Source: Isoetes taiwanensis (Eukaryota > Streptophyta > Lycopodiopsida > Isoetales > Isoetaceae). Taken from it: a stretch of DNA of 64,000 nt. Positions 9,288 to 40,425 of this stretch are shown here, piece by piece; within the stretch, counting starts at the first letter, position 1; each line of letters begins with the position of its first letter. The translations under genes and the position numbers were made by a program. The DNA is taken from contig JAJEKV010000303.1 of the NCBI GenBank assembly GCA_021234155.1, forward strand, positions 186,001-250,000. Direction: 5' to 3'. The notes under the pieces are model-generated. The model did not search any database. It saw nothing but the letters and a program-made list of their open reading frames with translations, and had not been told where the DNA came from.

Positions 9288-9959
9288 ATGGCGGGCGAGG
9301 CGGAAGCCGTCGTTAATGCTGCAAACCAAAGAACTGGCAGACATGTGCGGGTCTTTCTTACACCTTTTGCATCACCGGATTCAAATCCAAGGGCACAAGA
9401 TATAGCTGAAGATTTTTTTGAGATTACACCTCGGATGACGAGGAACAAGAATACCATCTCTTCCGAAACGAAGATATCGCATGAGCAAGCAAAGGGACCC
9501 AAAGGAAAGGAAGTCGTGATCAGGATTCAATTTCCTGATAACTTCATTATAGAAAGCAGATTCTTTTCTACAAATCCTGTGTCGGTGCTTACGGAATTTT
9601 TGCAGCTCACTTTGAGGTACCCAAATCGTCCTTTTTATCTCTTCACAACTCCTCCAAAGAAAAGGATCCAGAATATGATGGAAAGCTTGCATGAAGCAGG
9701 GTTTGTTCCAGGTGGTCTCGTTTTTTTCCGTTATGAAGATCCTTCCAGTGTTCAAATGGGACAAGAACCCTACTTACGAGATGATATTATGGTATTGCGG
9801 GATCTTCATCTCTTATACTCGCCAGGTCCAGCTCCAACAAGTATAGCAGCTCACTATTCTGCAGCCCACTATAGTCTTGCTAAACGTCCAAGGTGGTCTA
9901 ACCCCCAAGAAGTGCCTCAAGTTTTTGTGAAATCAGATGTTCATTATGCTGGACTTTAG
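9288..9959 (+). CDS. PUX1-like UBX-domain protein (CDC48/p97 cofactor)
   Basis: This is an intact single-exon frame of 223 residues. Plant PUX1 proteins bind the AAA ATPase CDC48/p97 through a UBX domain and promote hexamer disassembly in the cytosol. Residues 21-50 (RVFLTPF...EDFFEITPRM) match the short conserved segment ahead of the UBX domain in PUX1. Residues 75-150 are the UBX fold, with VIRIQFPD at the first strand, PFYLFTTPPKKRI in the loop region and AGFVPGGLVFF at the end. PYLRDDIMVLRDL (161-173) matches the PUX1 post-UBX motif, and a PRW near 201-203 echoes its basic C-terminal tail. The start is the first in-frame ATG and gives the expected N-terminus. PUX1 genes I know of have introns, so an intronless copy suggests a processed retrocopy. 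No stop breaks the frame and no poly-A tract directly follows the stop. Confidence 0.85.
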   Translation: MAGEAEAVVNAANQRTGRHVRVFLTPFASPDSNPRAQDIAEDFFEITPRMTRNKNTISSETKISHEQAKGPKGKEVVIRIQFPDNFIIESRFFSTNPVSVLTEFLQLTLRYPNRPFYLFTTPPKKRIQNMMESLHEAGFVPGGLVFFRYEDPSSVQMGQEPYLRDDIMVLRDLHLLYSPGPAPTSIAAHYSAAHYSLAKRPRWSNPQEVPQVFVKSDVHYAGL

Positions 9960-10534: not shown

Positions 10535-11610
10535 CGTGCTGCAACTAGGAATGCTCCTCGTTTCCATATAACCCAGACAAGCTTACAACCAAAACTAACC
10601 CCCGATGCTATTAGTTTCCAAGTGGCATTTCCAACTTTGCCAGTGGCACCATGATATGTTAGATCGTTATACTTTGTGCAAGCCTTCAATGTATTACACA
10701 GGACTCACTAAATTGCAAGTAATAACTTATTGTATTAATATGCATCAGAAACTCCTATCCTTTTCGTTGTTATCCAACTTAGAGCCAAGATGCACCACAG
10801 AAGAAAGCCACTGCACTATGAACTTTATTCAAGGTTTGGAAACATATTACGAGAACTAGCTACTAATACCACCCCACAATTGGTTAGTCTTCGCCACTAG
10901 CATCTTCTTCATTGCTGGTGAAGCTCCCTTTCGTATAACCGAAACAAGCTTACAACCAAACAAGCCCCCATGCTGTCAGTTTCCAACTTTACCAGTGCCA
11001 CCATGATGTGTTAGATCGTTATAATTTGTGCAAGCCTTCAATGTATTCCACGGGACTCACTAAATTGAGCAAGTAATTCATTGTATTAATATGCGTCAGA
11101 AACACTTATCCTTTTTGTTGTTATCCAACTTAGTGCCAAGATGCACCCACCACAGAAGAAAGCCACTGCATTATGGACTTCATTCAAGGTTGGAAACATA
11201 TTACCAGAATTGACTACTAATACCACCCCACAATTGGTTAGTCTTCGCCGCTAGCATCTTCTTCGCTGCTAGCGAATGAAGCTTCCTTCCAAGCCCCGAT
11301 GCTATTAGTTTCCAACTTTATCAGTGCCACCATGATGTGTTAGATCATTATATATTGTGCAAGCTTTCATCGTATTACACAGGACTCACTAAATTTCGCA
11401 AGAAATTATTGTATTAATATAAATCAGAAACTCTTGTCCTTTTCGTTGTTATTCAACTTAGTGCCAAGATACACTACAGAAGAAAAGCCATTGCATTCCG
11501 AACTTTATTCAAGGTTGGAAACATATTACCAGAATTGACTACTAATACCACCCCACAATTGGTTAGTCTTCGCTGCTAGCATCTTCTTTGCTGCTAGCGA
11601 ATGAACCTCC
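10535..11610. repeat. Three tandem copies of the 3' end of the F-box gene
   Basis: Three units of about 330-370 bp lie at about 10555-10915, 10935-11280 and 11285-11610. Each carries the same ordered landmarks: GATGCTATTAGTTTCCA (or close), CACCATGATGTGTTAGATC, ACTCACTAAATT, CACAGAAGAAAGCCACTGCA and ACCACCCCACAATTGGTTAG. The last unit overlaps the stop codon and final 20 or so codons of the minus-strand F-box gene (the segment encoding TNQLWGGISSQFW). The outer two are therefore displaced duplicates of its C-terminal codons plus 3' flank. Confidence 0.85.
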
Positions 11611-12635
11611 GATCCGATATATGTGGGCACCTGATGTTCACGTACACAATCAAAACCTACCTCTCTAGTCATTCCAGGAGACCACTCTAGGATCATGTCC
11701 TTCGCTGTCATGTCACACCTATCATACCTAATATATACTTTGTCGTTCACAGCCTTGGCCTCTGAGATAGATATGCATACATATTGTCCCCTACCTTCAT
11801 CAATTTCTTTCAGTCTTATCAAGGGGCCAGTAATTTCCACTATAAATAGTCTAAGCTCCTCTGCTACTCCAACCAGCAATAGTTGTCCTTGGAACTCTGT
11901 CAACTGGAATCTTGTCAACTCAGGATAATAAAGGTAAACCACATCTTGGAAGACACCACCAGTCCTCAAATTGTACGATACTAGTTTTGTACCAAAATCA
12001 TTTAAGGCATAGCATATGTCTCCTTTGACAATTGCAGACCTAAAATAATCCCCTGGGATAGCTACCACTTTTATCCACTCACCTTTCTTAGAATCAAAGA
12101 CCAGTATATCTCCAGATTTCACTGTATCCCCAAAAAAGATCATCACTTTATAACAAGAACAAGAGGAGTCTTTACCATCCATCCAAAAAACAACGTGAAG
12201 GGGCCAATTGGCGTGATCATAATGTTGTGGAAGCTCCTTTACAACTGAATTAGCCCAAAGATTGCTAGATAACACCATGGTCCATGTAGACTTATGTATT
12301 TCCTTGTAAACAGCTATGAATAAAACACAGCCGTCTGCATTAGGGCTAGTGACAGACTGAAGACGTCTGAATACACGAATACAATTAAGAGGCACGTGGG
12401 TATGCGATAAAATTTTCATGGGAAACTCATACCATTCTCCGTTCACGAAAGCTAGTGTGGAGTTCCAGTCCCCACCATAATTGTCGAAGTAGCTGAGTTT
12501 GAGGCAAGAGTGCAGGATCTCCAGAGTCACAACCCGCTTCCATGCTTTGCAAACGAATAAAGCAGATCTGAGATCCGGCATACGCAGCCTCTGAAATGCT
12601 TGTAGTAAGAGCTCGGAGGGAAGCACGCTCCACAT
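11526..12635 (-). CDS. F-box protein, substrate receptor of an SCF-type E3 ligase
   Basis: This is an uninterrupted frame of 369 residues. The N-terminus (about residues 3-40, LPSELLLQAFQRLRMPDL then ALFVCKAWKRV) is a canonical F-box. That domain binds SKP1 and brings the protein into a CUL1 ubiquitin ligase. The remaining 320 residues show recurring beta-strand-like stretches (ILVFDSKKGEWIKVV, LVSYNLRTGGVF, LRLFIVEITGP). These suggest a kelch-like or F-box-associated propeller that would recognise the substrate, but individual repeats are too degenerate for me to count. The start codon is two residues before the F-box. Tandem repeats flank both sides: a three-unit array upstream (12813-13165) and duplicated copies of the C-terminal codons downstream. 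Substrate and pathway cannot be inferred. Confidence 0.85.
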   Translation of the reverse strand: MWSVLPSELLLQAFQRLRMPDLRSALFVCKAWKRVVTLEILHSCLKLSYFDNYGGDWNSTLAFVNGEWYEFPMKILSHTHVPLNCIRVFRRLQSVTSPNADGCVLFIAVYKEIHKSTWTMVLSSNLWANSVVKELPQHYDHANWPLHVVFWMDGKDSSCSCYKVMIFFGDTVKSGDILVFDSKKGEWIKVVAIPGDYFRSAIVKGDICYALNDFGTKLVSYNLRTGGVFQDVVYLYYPELTRFQLTEFQGQLLLVGVAEELRLFIVEITGPLIRLKEIDEGRGQYVCISISEAKAVNDKVYIRYDRCDMTAKDMILEWSPGMTREVGFDCVREHQVPTYIGSEVHSLAAKKMLAAKTNQLWGGISSQFW

Positions 12636-12812
12636 TCTTACCGGGAATGAAAAAGCTCTCTCCCAAACCTATCCCACTTTTTTTTGCCGTATTATCGTTT
12701 TTGGCAGTCCGATGACGGCACCTTCCGCAGAATATGCTGGCCCAAGCCACCAGTATGGGGTCAACGTGGGGTCAAATTGACCCCATTAAATAGGAGCACC
12801 CCTTGCACATAA

Positions 12813-13165
12813 ACCATGGCTTCAAAGGCCAAAATACAAGACACGATCATGTAAATACAGCACCATAACACAAGTAAATTACGCGAAATCGTTATTTTTC
12901 TACAAGGCAAATCCCTTTGCACAAAAACCATGGCTTCAAAGGCCAAAATACAAGACACGATCATGTAAATACAGCACCATAGCAGAAGTAAATTAAGCGA
13001 AACCGTTATATTTTTACAAGGCAAACCTGGCATATGTACATTCAAGCAATCGCCCCTTGCAATAAAACCATGGCTTCAAGCCAAAGCACAAGAGACAAGC
13101 ATGTAAATACGCGACAAATTGAATGTAAGTACATAGAGTGAAGGTGTTATTTTTTACAAGACGCA
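12813..13165. repeat. Three-unit tandem repeat upstream of the F-box gene
   Basis: Units begin ACCATGGCTTCAA at 12813, 12927 and 13067 and share CATGTAAATAC, a GCGAAA-type segment and TACAAGGCA near the end of each unit. The first two are almost identical; the third is more diverged and longer. They lie about 180 bp beyond the F-box start codon, so they could fall in its promoter. Confidence 0.85.
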
Positions 13166-13776
13166 TGTGGCATAAGTTATTCAAAAGAAAATATGAGCAC
13201 AAACTCGGGCCCGCAGCCTTTCAGAGAGAGCCCGCCTTTATGACGCTTATCCAATGGCTGGATCTCCTATGACAAGAGTGCCTTGTAAGGCTGGCGCGTG
13301 CAACTCCGAGAGTATGAAGCTCTGATGTGGCAACCCAGCCAGCCCCATGCAACACCATTCATAGCGATCAATTGCCAAGTAAAACTCCGCTGGCCGGGCT
13401 TTAAGAATACATTGAGGTCCGCCATCCTATGCATCTCCGCTCACTAACTCCTCAAAGACATAATATCTCCTCCAGCCGGTGGGTAAAACCGAAAGCATCG
13501 ATGAGAGGCATCCACGTTAGAACCGATCAAGGAAGGATCTATGTGCACCACGGGATCACTTGCACCATCATCCGGCATTCGTGATCAACCTCCATTTCTA
13601 ACCCGCAAGCAATACATAAAGGAAATCAGGACAATCACGTAAGAACAAAGCGTGCCTAGCCTACCATGGTATGATCTCCTCAGTATATAAACCGGAATGT
13701 AATCAAAGATCATGATCGTATCTCGAACCTCCGGCTGAACGGGGTCATAAATATCATGGAAATTTCATCAGCCTCA

Positions 13777-14490
13777 TTAGCGTGGGTGAGTCATCCCAAT
13801 ACCGCTGCCCGCCAGTCCATTTCTCTCAACGGCACATAGCCACCGCGAGCCATATAGAATTGTTCGGATATCCGAAGGCATGTTGGCAGGGGCTTCGTGG
13901 GAGGATCCTCCCAAAGACGGACCACAATGTTCATTCACGTGGGCTATGTTAGAAGGGATTATCCAGCTATTGGATAGGGTGTACTTGCCGCTCCTGATCA
14001 TTCTAGCCAAGGTAAAAGTGAGGTTCGGTGTGGCACGGCATCCACCATGATAGGAAACTAAATGTGCTGCCTTATTGAGGATGTTACGATTGTCAAGAAC
14101 ACAGAGGCCCTTAGTATCTCCAGCACCCCATCGCAAGTTGATAGCTTCATTGATAGCCTTGGAAGATCTGAAGCACGCTCTCAAAACACTCTGAACATGC
14201 AAATGATCTGCAGAGGAGCCCCTCTCCAAGGCAACAGCCCCTACTATGTATTTTGTGTCACAGAAGGATGATAGAGCTTCATAGAAACTGAGGGGCACAT
14301 CTTGGCGTGAGAGGTCTAACGTGGCGGACACATCAATTGCCCCCCAACTGAAGGACGGATTGGGCATGGGAGGAGGCTCTTGGGTGCATCCTGCAGCTAG
14401 ATGTGCCGGGCATGCCCGCCAGCTAGTTGCAGATAGGGAGGCATTTGTGCACCAGCGGACATGGTAGCGGGGAGACGGGATAGGATTCAT
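13777..14490 (-). CDS. Replitron-like HUH (Rep-type) endonuclease, transposase
   Basis: An open frame of 237 residues. Residues 87-106 contain ALERG followed by DHLHVQ. H96-L97-H98 is the HUH metal-binding motif, and the Glu at 89 lies in the preceding strand as in rolling-circle Rep nucleases. A downstream AAHLVSYHGG (141-150) places a tyrosine (Y147) where Replitron Y1 enzymes have a G-Y-x-x-K type motif, although the usual lysine is not kept. The following LARMIRSGKY and SWIIPS (162-180) match the C-terminal block I associate with this family (an aliphatic-rich R/S-G-x-Y, then W-x-I-P). No helicase domain is present, which argues against a Helitron. The HUH core is intact, but stops shortly after the frame and the lost lysine suggest a decaying copy. 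A CRESS-like plasmid or virus Rep integrated in the genome is the main alternative. Confidence 0.6.
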   Translation of the reverse strand: MNPIPSPRYHVRWCTNASLSATSWRACPAHLAAGCTQEPPPMPNPSFSWGAIDVSATLDLSRQDVPLSFYEALSSFCDTKYIVGAVALERGSSADHLHVQSVLRACFRSSKAINEAINLRWGAGDTKGLCVLDNRNILNKAAHLVSYHGGCRATPNLTFTLARMIRSGKYTLSNSWIIPSNIAHVNEHCGPSLGGSSHEAPANMPSDIRTILYGSRWLCAVERNGLAGSGIGMTHPR

Positions 14491-14499
14491 CTCGCACCC

Positions 14500-16310
14500 G
14501 GCCGGACATGGCAGGAGGAATTACACCAACAGCCGGGATGGGGGCCTGGCCTTCCCCTTCCTTGCTGCCTTTCTCAAAGACATAACAGAAAACTAGAACA
14601 AGAAAGACACAGAGCAAAGAGGTCGCTAACCTGATAGAAGAGCCGCCGATCCCTGCTGCAAATTTGAAAGGAGGACCAGCCCCTCACCTTCATCGCCATG
14701 CTGCCACCTGCAGGAGCCAGAATTGGAAACCCCTTGGCTGCCCAGCATCTACAAGGGCGCACGCACGATGTTATAAAAATACGCTTTCTTTCCCAAAAAG
14801 CAACCGGCCAAGACGATCATACTAATTCACATACGAATACATCATCACACCTTCACAATTCTGGAGTTACAAATATACGGTTCCTCATCGGGACCACATT
14901 ATAAGTGCAATGATGACTTTTTAGCAAGCTTGGCTTTTCAGAGGTAGGGGACGGTGCCCATAAAGCGCCCATTAAGTTTGCCCAATTTGTTTGATATACA
15001 AGAATTTCCTTCTACTTACAATTGTGTTGTGTCAGATGTGCTACTTGCAATTCTGTTGTGTCAGATGTGCCTGACACAACAGAATTGCGAAGGAAATTAT
15101 TGAAACGTGAAATTTGGTTACCTTCATCTCTAGTGGAATCTTCAAAAACGTCCAGGATAATGAGGAAACTCGCAATAAATAGCTCTAGTTCATCCTTTGA
15201 TTTTAGTTACAGAAGTTACTTACATTCTTGTAAAGGATCCTTGCCACGTGGCGGAGCATGATTGGACAAGGGGCCTGAATTGAAGGTAACCAAAATTTAC
15301 ATATTGGGGAAGGGATTTTTCATGTGTAAATACAAGCAAATTTTGATACGGCTATTGCTCGTCTTCATAGATTAAATTGCAATTTAGACGCATTTCTGAT
15401 TAAATGTCCATAATGTTGAGTTCCTTCATAAGAAAATGTGTTGTTCGATTTGGTGGATATGGTGAAAATAAGTGTAGAATGTTGATGTTGAAATGCACAA
15501 TTGGAATTTTTCATGATACTTGTTAAATTTGTTAATAGGTTTTGTGAGATGCTCACTTCGATTGGATTGATCAGAAAGTACAATGCATAAAGGTTGTGGT
15601 TTTGCGTTTCCATGATACCAACTTTCTAGCTTCCATCCTACATTGTCTGGGTTTGAGCAAATATCTGATAACATTTCAGGCAGAGGAGGACATGTTCTTC
15701 ATTTTGTTGGTATGTACTTTTCCTTCTATTATTAACATTTTTCTAGAGTCAAACTGTAGAATGATATGGTTGCCTTAAGGCACATGGAAATATAGGTTGA
15801 TATGGCTGCCCTAAGGCACATGGGGGATGAAGGTCTCAGAGAGTTGAGGATCCTGATAACTATTCAAGCTTTCTCATATTTCTGTTAGAAAGGGCATTGA
15901 GTGTGAGCCCTTTTATTTGCTTCAAGAACACATGAAAAGATCCTCTTTGCGCTCAATGCACGGTAGCTGCCATTGTTATGAACTTGTGCTTTTTATGCAA
16001 TTTCCTTTGGAATCGTGCAAGTTGTAGGTACTATATTCGACGCATTTTGTTGTGTCATAGTGCCTTCATGGCCACTGGTATACTGCAATATGTTTGGAAT
16101 CTGAACGCTCAAGGACTTTTGGCAAGCCCAAGCATGATATGGCAGCTTCATGCTAAGTGTTTTGCCATGTCATTGTGCCTTACCACTAGTATACTGCAAC
16201 ATGTTTGAAATGCGAATGTCCAAGGTGTCTTTTGGGCATTCGCCACTCTGGAGGTAGCTCAAGTCTATAAGCATTGACATTTATCTTTTTGATAATCCTG
16301 TTGCAGTAGA
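14500..16310. other. Unassigned region
   Basis: No gene recognised. It includes a perfect 18-bp-arm hairpin at 15047-15088 (separate entry) and a G-box-like CCACGTGG near 15246. The repeated phrases CTAAGGCACATGG (15775 and 15812) and GCCACTGGTATACTGCAA-type (16070 and 16182) suggest old duplications. Confidence 0.4.
15047..15088. repeat. Perfect short inverted repeat
   Basis: Arms 15047-15064 and 15071-15088 (GCAATTCTGTTGTGTCAG and its exact complement) are separated by the six-base loop ATGTGC. An imperfect direct copy of the left arm lies just upstream (about 15020-15045). Transcribed, it would fold into an 18-bp stem-loop. No function can be assigned. Confidence 0.85.
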
Positions 16311-37000: not shown

Positions 37001-37430
37001 CAAATTATGCGCCTTTTATTTCACTTAACATATGAGCATATATGAGCACTAAATACACAAAATGTGCAAATATCGCATGTATGGGGATGCCCACCGAGCA
37101 CATTCTGGTGTGGACGGGGCCCTCAAGCGATCGACGGGCGCCGGAGTAATACCGCCACACCGGACAAAGCGACCGGGTGGGTATCCCACAACATGGAAGG
37201 GGAGCCAACCCCTTTTGTTTTCTCCCCTGCTGGCCAAGGCGAGCTCGGCTATAGCGACTTAAGGAGAGACGGCCTCCTAGCCTCTCCCTCCGATCCGACG
37301 CTGTCTTCGTGAAGCAAGGCTATTTCTTCAGCAGTTTTTTCCTCCCTTTGTTTTCTATTGTACATGAGGTTCGATCTATGGCTTCAAAGCAGTAGACGGC
37401 CTTCTAGGCCCCCATTCGCCGTTGTTCGCC
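34020..37430. other. Unassigned AT-rich region
   Basis: T-rich low-complexity sequence with many GTTTTTT runs from 34430 to about 35180, then AT-rich DNA without convincing frames to about 37000. A GC-richer patch (37060-37320) just before the minisatellite block has open frames on both strands but no recognised motif. A tRNA-like B-box near 35277 is listed separately. Confidence 0.4.
35230..35345 (-). repeat. Possible tRNA-derived SINE remnant
   Basis: On the minus strand the sequence TGGGTTCGATTCCCA (about 35274-35290) is a perfect tRNA T-arm and internal polymerase III B-box. A weak A-box-like segment (ATGGTATTTGAAATGC) lies about 35 bp upstream of it. No complete cloverleaf or anticodon stem can be built, so this is a SINE or tRNA relic at most, or chance. 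Confidence 0.25.
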
Positions 37431-37439
37431 AGCGCTTCA

Positions 37440-37840
37440 TGAATGACAAAGTAAAAAGTGGCATGATGATGTGGCGAAAGGTATTTCTTGCAAAAGTTGA
37501 CATGCACATGTTGATGTGGCATGCCATTGGTGACATGTCATGCCAAGTGGGGCAAGGCCAACTTTTGACTAGGCCAAAAATAAAAAATGTGCAACTTTGG
37601 TTTTCCATGGGTTGATGTGGCAAATTTTCGTGACATGGCAAGATATGGGGTGATGTGGACGTGATGATGACCCACCCTATGCAAACTCTCGGGCATGTTT
37701 GTCCTCCGCTCTCGATGCAAAAAATGTAGGGTTCACGCGGCGGCTGCTCCCTGCCACAAGTGGCCAAGAGTTGGCGTGGCATGTCGTTACCCTTGTGGCA
37801 ACTAACAAACAAAGATGGCAAAGATGATGTGGCACTCAAA
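37440..37840 (+). repeat. Spacer unit A1 of the minisatellite block
   Basis: About 380 bp containing GTTGATGTGGCATGCCATTG, GGCCAACTTTTGACTAGGCC, TTTGGTTTTCCATGGGTTGA and GATGATGACCCACCCTATGC. The same ordered landmarks recur at 38690-39050 (A2) and in part at 39880-40030 (A3). Each copy is followed by hairpin minisatellite sequence. Confidence 0.85.
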
Positions 37841-38690
37841 CATGGCTCAAACATGCCACGTGGGTTCCAACATGCCACCTAGGTCCAACATGCCAAGGGT
37901 GGCTCAAACATGCCACCTAAGCCCAACATGCCAAGGTGGCTCAAACATGCCACCTAGGCTCCAACATGCCAAGGTGGTTCAAACATGCCACCTAGGCTCC
38001 AACATGCCAAGGTGGTTTCAAACATGCCACCTAGGCTCCAAACATGCCAAGGTGGTTTCCAACATGCCACCTAGGCTCCAACATGCCAAGGTGGCTCAAA
38101 CATGCCAAGGTGGCTCAAACATGCCACTAGGGCTCCAACATGCCAAGTTGGCTCAAACATGCCACCTAGGCTCCAACATGCCAAGGTGGCTCAACATGCC
38201 ACCTAGGGTCCAACATGCCACAGGTGGCTCAAATATGCCACCTAGGCTCCAACATGCCAAGGTGGCTCAAACATGCCATTTAGGCTCAAACATGTCAAGG
38301 TGGTTTCAAACATGCCACCTAGGCTCCAACATGCCAAGGTGGCTCCAACATGGCACCTATGTCCAACATGCCAAGGTGGCTCAAACATGCCACCCTATGC
38401 TCAAACATGCCTAGGTGGTTCCAACATGCCACCTAGGCTCCAACATGCCAAGGTGGCTCAACATGCCACCTAGGGCTCAAACATGCCAAGGTGGCTCAAA
38501 CATGCCACCTAGGCTCAAACATGCCAACAGTAGCTCCAACATGCCACCTAGGCTCCAACATGCCAAGGTGCCCAAACATGCCACCTAGGTCAAACATGCC
38601 AAAAAACATGCCATGTAGGCTCAAACATTCCAATTAGGCGTAAAAATGCCAAGGTGGCACAAAACATGCCAAGGTGGCGTAAACATGCCA
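37840..38690 (+). repeat. Hairpin minisatellite array 1 (about 38-bp unit)
   Basis: Tandem units alternate two 19-bp halves, CTCCAACATGCCACCTAGG and CTCAAACATGCCAAGGTGG. The halves contain GCCACCTAGGC and GCCAAGGTGGC, which are inverted complements with one mismatch, so every unit can fold into an 11-bp stem with an 8-base loop. Unit length varies by a base or so, and the frame therefore shifts between units. The long open frames here (for example 37815-38414) are by-products of repetition. Confidence 0.95.
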
Positions 38691-39050
38691 AGGTGGCACA
38701 AAAGTTGACATGCACATGTTGATGTGGCATGCCATTGGTGACATGTCATGCCAAGTAAGCAAGGCCAACTTTTGACTAGGCCAAAAAAAAAAAAAGATGT
38801 GCAACTTTGGTTTTCCATGGGTTGATGTGGCAAATTTTGGTGACATAGCAAGATATGGGTGATGTGGATTTGATGATGACCCACCCTATGCAAACTCCGG
38901 GTGTGTTTGTCTCCGCCCCGATGCAAAAATGTAGGGTTCACGTTATGGGCTGCCCTGCCCCTTGCCACCAAGTGGCCAAGAGTTGGCGGTGGCATGTCGT
39001 TACCCTGTGGCACGAAACAAACAAAGATGGCAAAGATGATGTGGCACTCC
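38690..39050 (+). repeat. Spacer unit A2 of the minisatellite block
   Basis: A second copy of the 37440-37840 unit, collinear with a few indels, from ACATGCACATGTTGATGTGG to GGCAAAGATGATGTGGCACT. Confidence 0.9.
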
Positions 39051-39880
39051 AAACATGGCTCAAACATGCCACGTGGGCTCCAACATGCCACCTAGGCTCC
39101 AACATGCCAAGGTGGCTCAAACATGCCACCTAAGCTCCAACATGCCAAGGTGGCTCAAACATGCCACCTAGGCTCCAACATGCCAAGGTGGCTCAAACAT
39201 GCCACCTAGGCTCCAACATGCCAAGGTGGCTCAAACATGCCACCTAGGCTCCAACATGCCAAGGTATTTCCAACATGCCACCTAGGGTTCCAAACATGCC
39301 AAGGTGGCTCAAACATGCCAAGGTGGCTCAAACATGCCACGGGCCCAACATGCCAAGTTTTCAAACATGCCACCTAGGCTCCAACATGCCAGGAGCCAAC
39401 ATGCCACCTAGGCTCCAACATGCCAAGGTGGCTCAAATATGCCACCTAGGCTCCAACATGCCAAGGTGGCTCAAACATGCCACCTAGGCTCCAACATGCC
39501 AAGGTGGCTCAAACATGCCACCTATGCTCCAACATGCCAAGGTGGCTCAAACATGCCACCTAGGCTCCAACATGCCAAGGTGGCTCAAACATGCCACCTA
39601 GGCTTCAACATGCCAAGGTGGCTCAACATGCCATTAGGCTCAAAACATGCCAGGTGGCTCAAACATGCCACCTAGGGCTCAAACATGCCAAGGGTAGCTC
39701 CAACATGCCACCTAGGTTCCAACATGCCAGGAGCTCAACATGCCACCTAGGCTCAAACATGCCAAGGTGGCTCAAACATGCCATGTAGGCTCAAACATTC
39801 CAAAAAGGTAGAAACATGCCAAGGTGGCACAAACATGCCAAGGTGGCGTAAACATGCCAAGGTGGTATGTTGGAAAAAAG
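39050..39880 (+). repeat. Hairpin minisatellite array 2
   Basis: The same alternating 19-bp halves as array 1, most regular between 39100 and 39260 and between 39420 and 39600. It ends in a run containing CCAAGGTGGCACAAACATG that also closes array 1 (about 38645-38690). Together with the A units this shows duplication of a segment of roughly 1.2 kb. Confidence 0.95.
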
Positions 39881-40040
39881 TTGACATGCATTTTGTTGAT
39901 GTGGCATGCCATTGGTGACATGTCATGCCAAGTAAGCAAGGCCAACTTTGACTAGGCCAAAATAAAAAATGATGTGCAACTTTGGTTTTCCATGGGTTGA
40001 TGTGGCAAATTTTGGTGACATAGCAAGTTGATGTGGCAAA
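39880..40040 (+). repeat. Partial spacer unit A3
   Basis: Carries the first half of the A unit (TGTGGCATGCCATTGGTGAC through GGGTTGATGTGGCAAATTTT), with the last phrase repeated once. It breaks off at the point where the minisatellite reverses direction. Confidence 0.85.
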
Positions 40041-40425
40041 TTTTGGTGGCATGTTGGAGCCTGTGTGGCATGTAAAATGTTGGAGCCCAAATGGCATGTT
40101 TGAGCCACCTTGGCCATGGAGTCCACGCAGATAAGTTTCCCACCTGGCATGTTGGAGCCTGTGGGTGGCATGTTGGAGCCTAGGTGGTATGTCGGGGTTT
40201 CCACACGGTATGTTTGCTTCACCTCGCATGTTTGAGCCTAGGTGGTAAGTTGGTGCCTAGGGTGGCATATTTGAGCCCACCTTGGCATGTTGGAGCCAGG
40301 TGGCAGGTGGCATGTAACATGTTGGAAACATGGCATGTTTGAGCCACATGTTTGGCATGTTGGAGCCAGGGAGCATGTTGGGTGGCATGTTTGAGCCACC
40401 TTTCCATAGTTGGAGGCTAGGTTGA
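40040..40425 (-). repeat. Hairpin minisatellite array 3, inverted
   Basis: The same halves appear here as reverse complements (GGCATGTTGGAGCCTAGG, GGCATGTTTGAGCCACC). This part can pair with array 2, about 200-1000 bp away, to form a long snap-back structure. Confidence 0.9.

Follow-up and report, generated by a model that had tools for sequence, protein, structure and literature searches.

Positions 13777–14490 of the analysed window (a stretch of 64,000 nucleotides from the lycophyte Isoetes taiwanensis, to which all coordinates refer unless another sequence is named) raise the question of whether the open frame located there derives from a Replitron, a recently described kind of transposon, and whether this copy or its family could move. 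The original prediction, made from the sequence by itself, proposed a helicase-less Replitron protein in a non-seed plant and paired its HUH motif with the tyrosine of AAHLVSYHGG; the activity of the copy and of the family was left open.

Family assignment of the open frame

The 237-aa frame is present and stop-free on the minus strand, from 14490 to 13777, and exhibits all of the predicted features: the HUH motif HLH at residues 96–98 (14197–14205, minus strand), and the C-terminal motifs MIRSGKY (residues 164–170) and WIIPS (residues 176–180). The profile HMM analysis, which the original prediction had suggested as a check, identified PF21859 (Replitron_HUH) as the sole Pfam family matching the window protein at E ≤ 10 (E-value 4.2e-6). 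The match relates residues 57–117 to positions 3–63 of the 128-position profile, i.e. to the first half of the domain, and its score of 27.6 bits is 0.9 bits short of the family cut-off of 28.5. Searches of the genome (1,658,258,908 bases in 1110 contigs) revealed at least 270 matches to the window protein at E ≤ 0.01 (150 of 3321 first-look candidates scored), which together with the PF21859 match argues that the frame is more than a chance opening.

Among the relatives from the same genome, L005 matches PF21859 with 65.5 bits (profile 1–127 of 128, residues 76–201) and L002 with 57.2 bits (profile 30–127), and all 14 proteins of an alignment referred to here as A1 match it at E ≤ 0.01. When the genome was searched with the profile itself, each of the 150 places scored (out of 2165 first-look candidates) exceeded the family cut-off; none of 14 control genomes yielded a match above it. 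The second Replitron family, PF21860 (Replitron_C), gave weak matches of 16.9 and 17.8 bits, below its cut-off of 27 (3 of the 14 A1 proteins match at E ≤ 0.01), and no Pfam families besides these two were found in the A1 proteins at this threshold. As predicted, no helicase family was detected in the window protein at E ≤ 10 or in the A1 proteins at E ≤ 0.01, and a scan of the second ORF of two relatives (L005 and L008) gave no helicase match at E ≤ 10 either. The single-sequence structure model of the window protein has a pLDDT of 35, the profile search of solved structures returned 0 matches, and phmmer returned one weak match, to a ribosomal protein (E 1.7).

Six further loci, taken from the PF21859 list for their long frames or top score, comprise one L020-like copy and three more protein lineages, 32–39% identical to L005 (alignment A2, 6 rows). 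All four divergent lineages keep DHLH and GYC[ML]KD, and H-L-H is invariant in both A1 (14 rows) and A2. We are highly confident that the window ORF is a remnant of Replitron ORF1, i.e. of a single-tyrosine HUH transposon for which an ATAAT-end mechanism is proposed below, with positions 13777–14490 (minus strand) as a fragment comprising the HUH half and the C-terminal block. The PF21859 match, the terminal direct repeats described below, the helicase scans and the lycophyte host all agree with the idea of a Replitron in a non-seed plant: the element belongs to a known transposon group, is decayed and occurs in a lineage in which such a find is expected.

Elsewhere in the window, a 223-aa ORF on the plus strand (9288–9959) exhibits a UBX domain (PF00789, 1.8e-5), and the ORFs found on both strands of 37384–40229 consist of repeated CHLGSNMPR-like units, i.e. 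represent repeat DNA with open frames.

The missing Y-x-x-K block and the decay of the copy

In relatives with long frames ORF1 spans about 350–430 aa from stop to stop and exhibits HLH followed, 53 residues on, by a Y-x-x-K motif, GYC[ML]KD, which lies in a 62-residue block within the HUH domain. Open relatives (e.g. L002, L005, L006, L012, L013, L016, L018, L020 and L021) read NEAIK or NDAIK, then GYC[MT]KDIGKVHY, then WGAGDTK. The window copy passes from the NEAIK/NDAIK region directly to WGAGDTK: 186 bp are absent, in frame, with the junction at 14137–14139 (minus strand), and 62 codons including GYCMKD are lost with them. This deletion is private. A 126-bp query across the junction obtained 60 genome matches (40 of 79 candidates scored), among which the window alone spans both halves; the others cover one half plus at most about 5 bases of the other. 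We considered a deletion common to a sub-family and rejected it, as there is no second carrier among these 60 matches. The Y-x-x-K motif is in open frame in 28 of the 30 loci with a recognisable ORF1, the exceptions being the window and L024, where DNA homology covers the Y-x-x-K part in pieces.

The deletion bears directly on the choice of the catalytic residue. The tyrosine selected by the original prediction belongs to VSYHGG (residues 145–150; 14041–14058, minus strand), which is conserved, its tyrosine being as invariant in A1 and A2 as H-L-H, and lies beyond the PF21859-matched stretch. In L005, Tyr172 of GYCMKD falls within the PF21859 match and Tyr230 of VSYHGG outside it. The GYCMKD tyrosine is thus likely to be the catalytic residue, while the VSYHGG tyrosine is unlikely to be, since the relatives' Y-x-x-K lies inside the Pfam match and VSYHGG follows it; the proposed partner of the HUH motif does not belong to the HUH domain as drawn by Pfam. 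The original prediction also noted the loss of the lysine expected after the tyrosine. The lysine is indeed absent, not through a change of one residue, but because a different tyrosine had been read and the whole Y-x-x-K block is deleted. The window copy serves as a caution that the conserved tyrosine surviving in a damaged frame may differ from that of the HUH domain, and is otherwise of little interest in itself.

Other damage is found on both sides of the frame. The original N-terminus, MSLRKAARK..., is encoded at 14524–14583 (minus strand) and is followed after 20 codons by an in-frame stop, directly after MSLRKAARKGKARPPSRLLV; the upstream MSLRK start is seen in the window (14583) and in several relatives, and the methionine of MNPIPS is internal. 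Near the C-terminus the stretch EHCGPSLGGSSHEAPAN is read in another frame and then the frame terminates; four in-frame stops lie beyond it, so the nearby stops mentioned in the original prediction are real. In L005, L006, L007 and L008 a second ORF of about 140–150 residues follows ORF1 on its 3' side (no Pfam family at the cut-off in the two scanned, L005 and L008), and its remnant in the window, with stops, occupies 13225–13569 (minus strand). With regard to possible splicing of the second ORF to ORF1, the aligned rows (6 out of 15 tried) have in common a GCAG acceptor-like site and also the stop of ORF1 that precedes it. The window copy is unable to act as a transposase, as the deletion took the putative catalytic tyrosine block, and is dead on several counts (deletion, stops, frame slips and lost start).

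Estimates of dN/dS were attempted for nine sequences (36 pairs), of which 20 pairs gave ratios, silent sites being saturated in the other 16. Among seven long-frame copies (L005, L012, L013, L016, L018, L020 and L021) the ratio is 0.028–0.088 in 11 of 21 pairs, the other 10 being saturated, and L002 gives 0.03, 0.07 and 0.20 with three of them. The long-frame relatives are under purifying selection. The window gives 0.571 with L002, at the lowest dS (0.29) among the eight sequences compared with it, and 0.08–0.38 with five others, where most of the dS is near saturation and the larger distances take in evolution under constraint that the copy shares with its family. The copy is old, as judged from the dS to L002, and decayed; closer, but broken, pieces exist in the genome.

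Element ends, copies and empty sites

The boundaries of the element were drawn from homology to seven copies in the same genome (L002–L008) and delimit 2225 bp, 12678–14902 on the minus strand. The 5' end lies at 14902 (ATAATGTGGTCCCGATG), with the homology break at 14902–14903 in L002, L003, L004 and L008 and earlier in L005, L006 and L007; it was also found by the 5'-end pattern (C906:200868–200902, one mismatch). The 3' end lies near 12678, where the homology to L002, L004, L005 and L006 breaks, and is placed to within about ±10 bp in a degenerate terminal unit. ORF-bearing copies measure 2.2–2.4 kb and short copies about 0.95–1.4 kb.

Alignment of the genome copies, the other check suggested at the outset, revealed the terminal direct repeat. 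The relatives carry ATAAT at the 5' end and ATAAT units at the 3' end, which identifies this pentamer as the repeat. In 12 of 16 copies the marked 5' boundary coincides with ATAAT (in L015 the motif is 16 bases inside it, and L010, L012 and L014 do not have it there), most copies beginning with ATAATGT. The relatives' 3' end comprises a hairpin (GCCGTC-ATTG-GACGGC), then a unit like CAAAAAACGATAATACAA, then CAAAAAACGATAAT, i.e. a doubled AAAAACGATAAT unit. Of 25 rows, 15 have a hairpin stem of 6 bp without mismatch, and in the remaining ten, including the window, no perfect 6-bp stem was found there; in L010 a paired change (GCCGTT/AACGGC) leaves the stem perfect. Of 20 copies picked by their ends, 17 have ATAAT at both (exceptions: L035, L039 and the window), and no terminal inverted repeats were seen in the Replitron copies. 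In the window itself the 5' ATAAT is at 14898–14902, that of the penultimate 3' unit (CGATAAT) at 12691–12695, the last unit being unrecognisable, and the remnant of the subterminal hairpin, one arm mismatched, at 12703–12719 (all minus strand). The 3' part of the element also contains two 114-bp tandem units (12799–13025, minus strand), with weaker pieces of a third copy at 13053–13177; L002 and L004 have two tandem units of about 130 bp each. Allowing at most one mismatch, the 5'-end pattern has 213 genome matches (111 forward and 102 reverse) and the 3'-end pattern 33 (14 forward and 19 reverse), with 0 for either reversed control.

Two observations concern the surroundings. An F-box ORF of 369 aa (11526–12635, minus strand; PF12937, 1.1e-7), pieces of which match many places in the genome, starts 42 bp past the 3' end of the element and runs in the same direction, so that the region upstream of this ORF could come from the element. 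On the other side, 15012–15103 contains 29-bp tandem and inverted repeats (TGTTGTGTCAG...) with many partial genome matches, perhaps a small inverted-repeat element.

Non-autonomous copies (L029, L031, L034, L035, L037, L038, L039 and L045) have about 125–325 bp at the 5' end and 160–400 bp at the 3' end in common with the ORF-bearing ones. L029, L031, L033 and L038 have an interior in common; other interiors differ. Two interiors were analysed for capture of host genes, which we rejected for these two, as both consist of repeats with no recognisable host genes: that of L037 is a mosaic, its pieces matching different dispersed loci (40 of 541 candidates scored), and that of L045 is a repeat family with seven other copies over most of its length at 80–91% identity and an eighth at 74% (among the candidates scored, 40 of 67). 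Four ORFs from non-autonomous interiors have no Pfam match below E 0.1, one reaching 0.14. A second short family has the 5' end ATAATGTTTGCCCGATCACG and CCATAAT units at the 3' end; three of six fetched loci measured 947, 976 and 978 bp. On C568 a single ATAAT (L036:1516–1520) is both the end of a short element and the beginning of L017, the two lying head to tail, and in L030 a second 5' end follows the 3' end of the first element by a few bases. Nested insertions bring L038 and L039 to more than 4 kb, that in L039 (C1070:6560790–6567194) being, by eye, a Copia-like retrotransposon with a 1201-aa frame and terminal repeats 98.5% identical. L014 and L015 (C1100), about 74 kb apart, have the same flanks and so probably belong to a duplicated segment.

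Empty sites were sought by joining the flanks of 24 copies (19, 4 and the window) and searching the genome, with 40 candidates scored per search, so that a miss is not proof of absence. Paralogous empty sites were found for eight of the 24. From the 5' junction their first five bases read ATAAT (L045), ATATG (L018), ATAAG (L037), ATATG (L035), ATTAC (L039), AAACG (L023), AAATA (L040) and ATATA (L015), i.e. position 1 is A in all 8, position 2 is T in 6 and position 3 is A in 7; for frequencies of A and T of about 0.30 each, one paralog per site and independent positions, the three tail probabilities multiply to about 1e-9. This enrichment of A-T-A indicates that the target sites are similar to the start of the terminal repeat. 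L045 and L018 have a clean 3' junction and L015 a nearly clean one, while L023 has four extra bases there; in L035, L037, L039 and L040 the 3' side is at first non-collinear, which may reflect end variation or later change. For the window copy, none of 65 matches crosses the junction (40 of 62 candidates scored). No target-site duplication beyond ATAAT was seen by eye in 20 copies, and ATAAT itself could be repeat or duplication. L003 lies between two direct copies of a sequence of about 30 bp (32 bp by BLAST; L003:553–584 and 2643–2674), and its 3' end is unusual.

The exact filled and empty pair, L045 and L049, has two ATAAT in the filled site and one in the empty site. The segments concerned, on C996 and C1033, are 98.1% and 98.9% identical over 6.07 kb and have exactly five bases, ATAAT, in common at the break; they may be duplicates or retained haplotypes. 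On one side, 1.46 kb at a distance of 33–37 kb are again similar (95%); on the other, the 10 kb examined gave no such similarity. As to the activity left open by the original prediction, the copy is dead, and for the family there are the purifying selection and this one presence/absence pair, with flanks 98–99% identical; the family of the window copy was evidently mobile. The best sibling found for the L045 interior is 91% identical (40 of 67 candidates scored), whereas a fresh insertion should leave a near-identical donor. Either that donor has been lost or is unassembled, or the empty site is the scar of an excision. We consider it rather doubtful that Replitrons do more than copy and paste, with precise excision at the ATAAT repeats as at the L045 site; if they did, terminal repeat, target and scar would be one motif, read by the same HUH enzyme.

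Proposed mechanism and comparison with known systems

HUH enzymes use a tyrosine to cleave single-stranded DNA and remain linked to the cut strand (PMC13231165). In the model we propose, the Replitron enzyme would nick single-stranded DNA at the ATAAT of each element end, the hairpin just inside the 3' end acting as a guide there, and would attach to the cut strand through the GYCMKD tyrosine as a covalent intermediate. The element would then be joined to a target resembling its own end motif (A-T-A), and the filled site would read ATAAT...ATAAT in place of a single motif of this kind in the empty target. We regard this as the simplest model, as the two ends carry one motif, to which the target roughly conforms. 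It is built on the domain, the conservation of HLH and Y-x-x-K, the ends with their direct repeat, the empty sites and the purifying selection, all of which are observed. As the terminal unit at its 3' end is degenerate, the window copy is unlikely to be mobilised in trans. The rule for cutting and insertion can be tested in this 1.66-Gb lycophyte genome, which contains ends and domains in the hundreds, four or more divergent lineages, non-autonomous derivatives and empty sites.

Could the frame have another origin? A fragment of a Helitron Rep, from a two-tyrosine HUH rolling-circle transposon that had lost its helicase, would share the HUH enzyme, the 3' subterminal hairpin and the lack of terminal inverted repeats (Helitrons as described in PMC10741241). 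We find this origin extremely improbable, given that at E ≤ 0.01 the A1 proteins match exclusively the two Replitron families, that the scanned ORFs of the elements of about 2.3–2.4 kb contain no helicase match, and that the ends read ATAAT...ATAAT and the targets are ATA-like. Reps of CRESS-DNA viruses have HUH followed by Y-x-x-K, and the same order in the Isoetes proteins recalls them. Nevertheless, we give hardly any credence to an endogenous viral or plasmid Rep: 11 pattern stretches in viral contigs and 505 in prokaryote contigs contained 0 confirmed relatives each, no helicase, such as the superfamily 3 helicase of CRESS-DNA Reps, is matched by the A1 proteins, and the many copies have transposon-like ends in common.

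Domestication of a Replitron protein as a host gene, with the short form under selection, concerns the window frame in particular. It would account for a stop-free frame of 237 aa and a deletion that is in frame, and weak recent constraint is conceivable as the ratio of 0.57 rests on one close relative, L002. That ratio, the reading of EHCGPSLGGSSHEAPAN in another frame, the loss of the original start to a stop and a deletion form unique among the 60 junction matches (40 of 79 candidates scored) nonetheless make domestication very unlikely. A decayed Replitron copy is the reading that we retain.

Replitrons are described as having terminal direct repeats of 5–11 bp, target-site duplications of 2–8 bp and sizes of 0.9–4 kb (Craig 2023, PNAS, as summarised in PMC10741241). 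Compared with that summary, the Isoetes elements agree in HUH family, a helicase-free match profile, the 5-bp terminal direct repeat, the absence of visible inverted repeats, size and non-seed host. They differ in that the window copy is without the catalytic half of its HUH domain, that Replitron_C scores under its cut-off, that no 2–8 bp duplication as described there is seen by eye beyond ATAAT (L003, with 30 bp, being odd), and that L038 and L039 exceed 4 kb via nested insertions. With Helitrons, described partly in the same source, they share an enzyme of the HUH rolling-circle type, the 3' subterminal hairpin and the lack of terminal inverted repeats. The differences from Helitrons are the one tyrosine motif in the HUH domain, the negative helicase scans and the ATAAT/ATAAT ends.

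The Y1 transposases of the IS200/IS605 group are single-tyrosine HUH enzymes of elements with a subterminal hairpin and a target motif matching the element end. The Isoetes ORF is much longer, and the likeness lies in these three described features.
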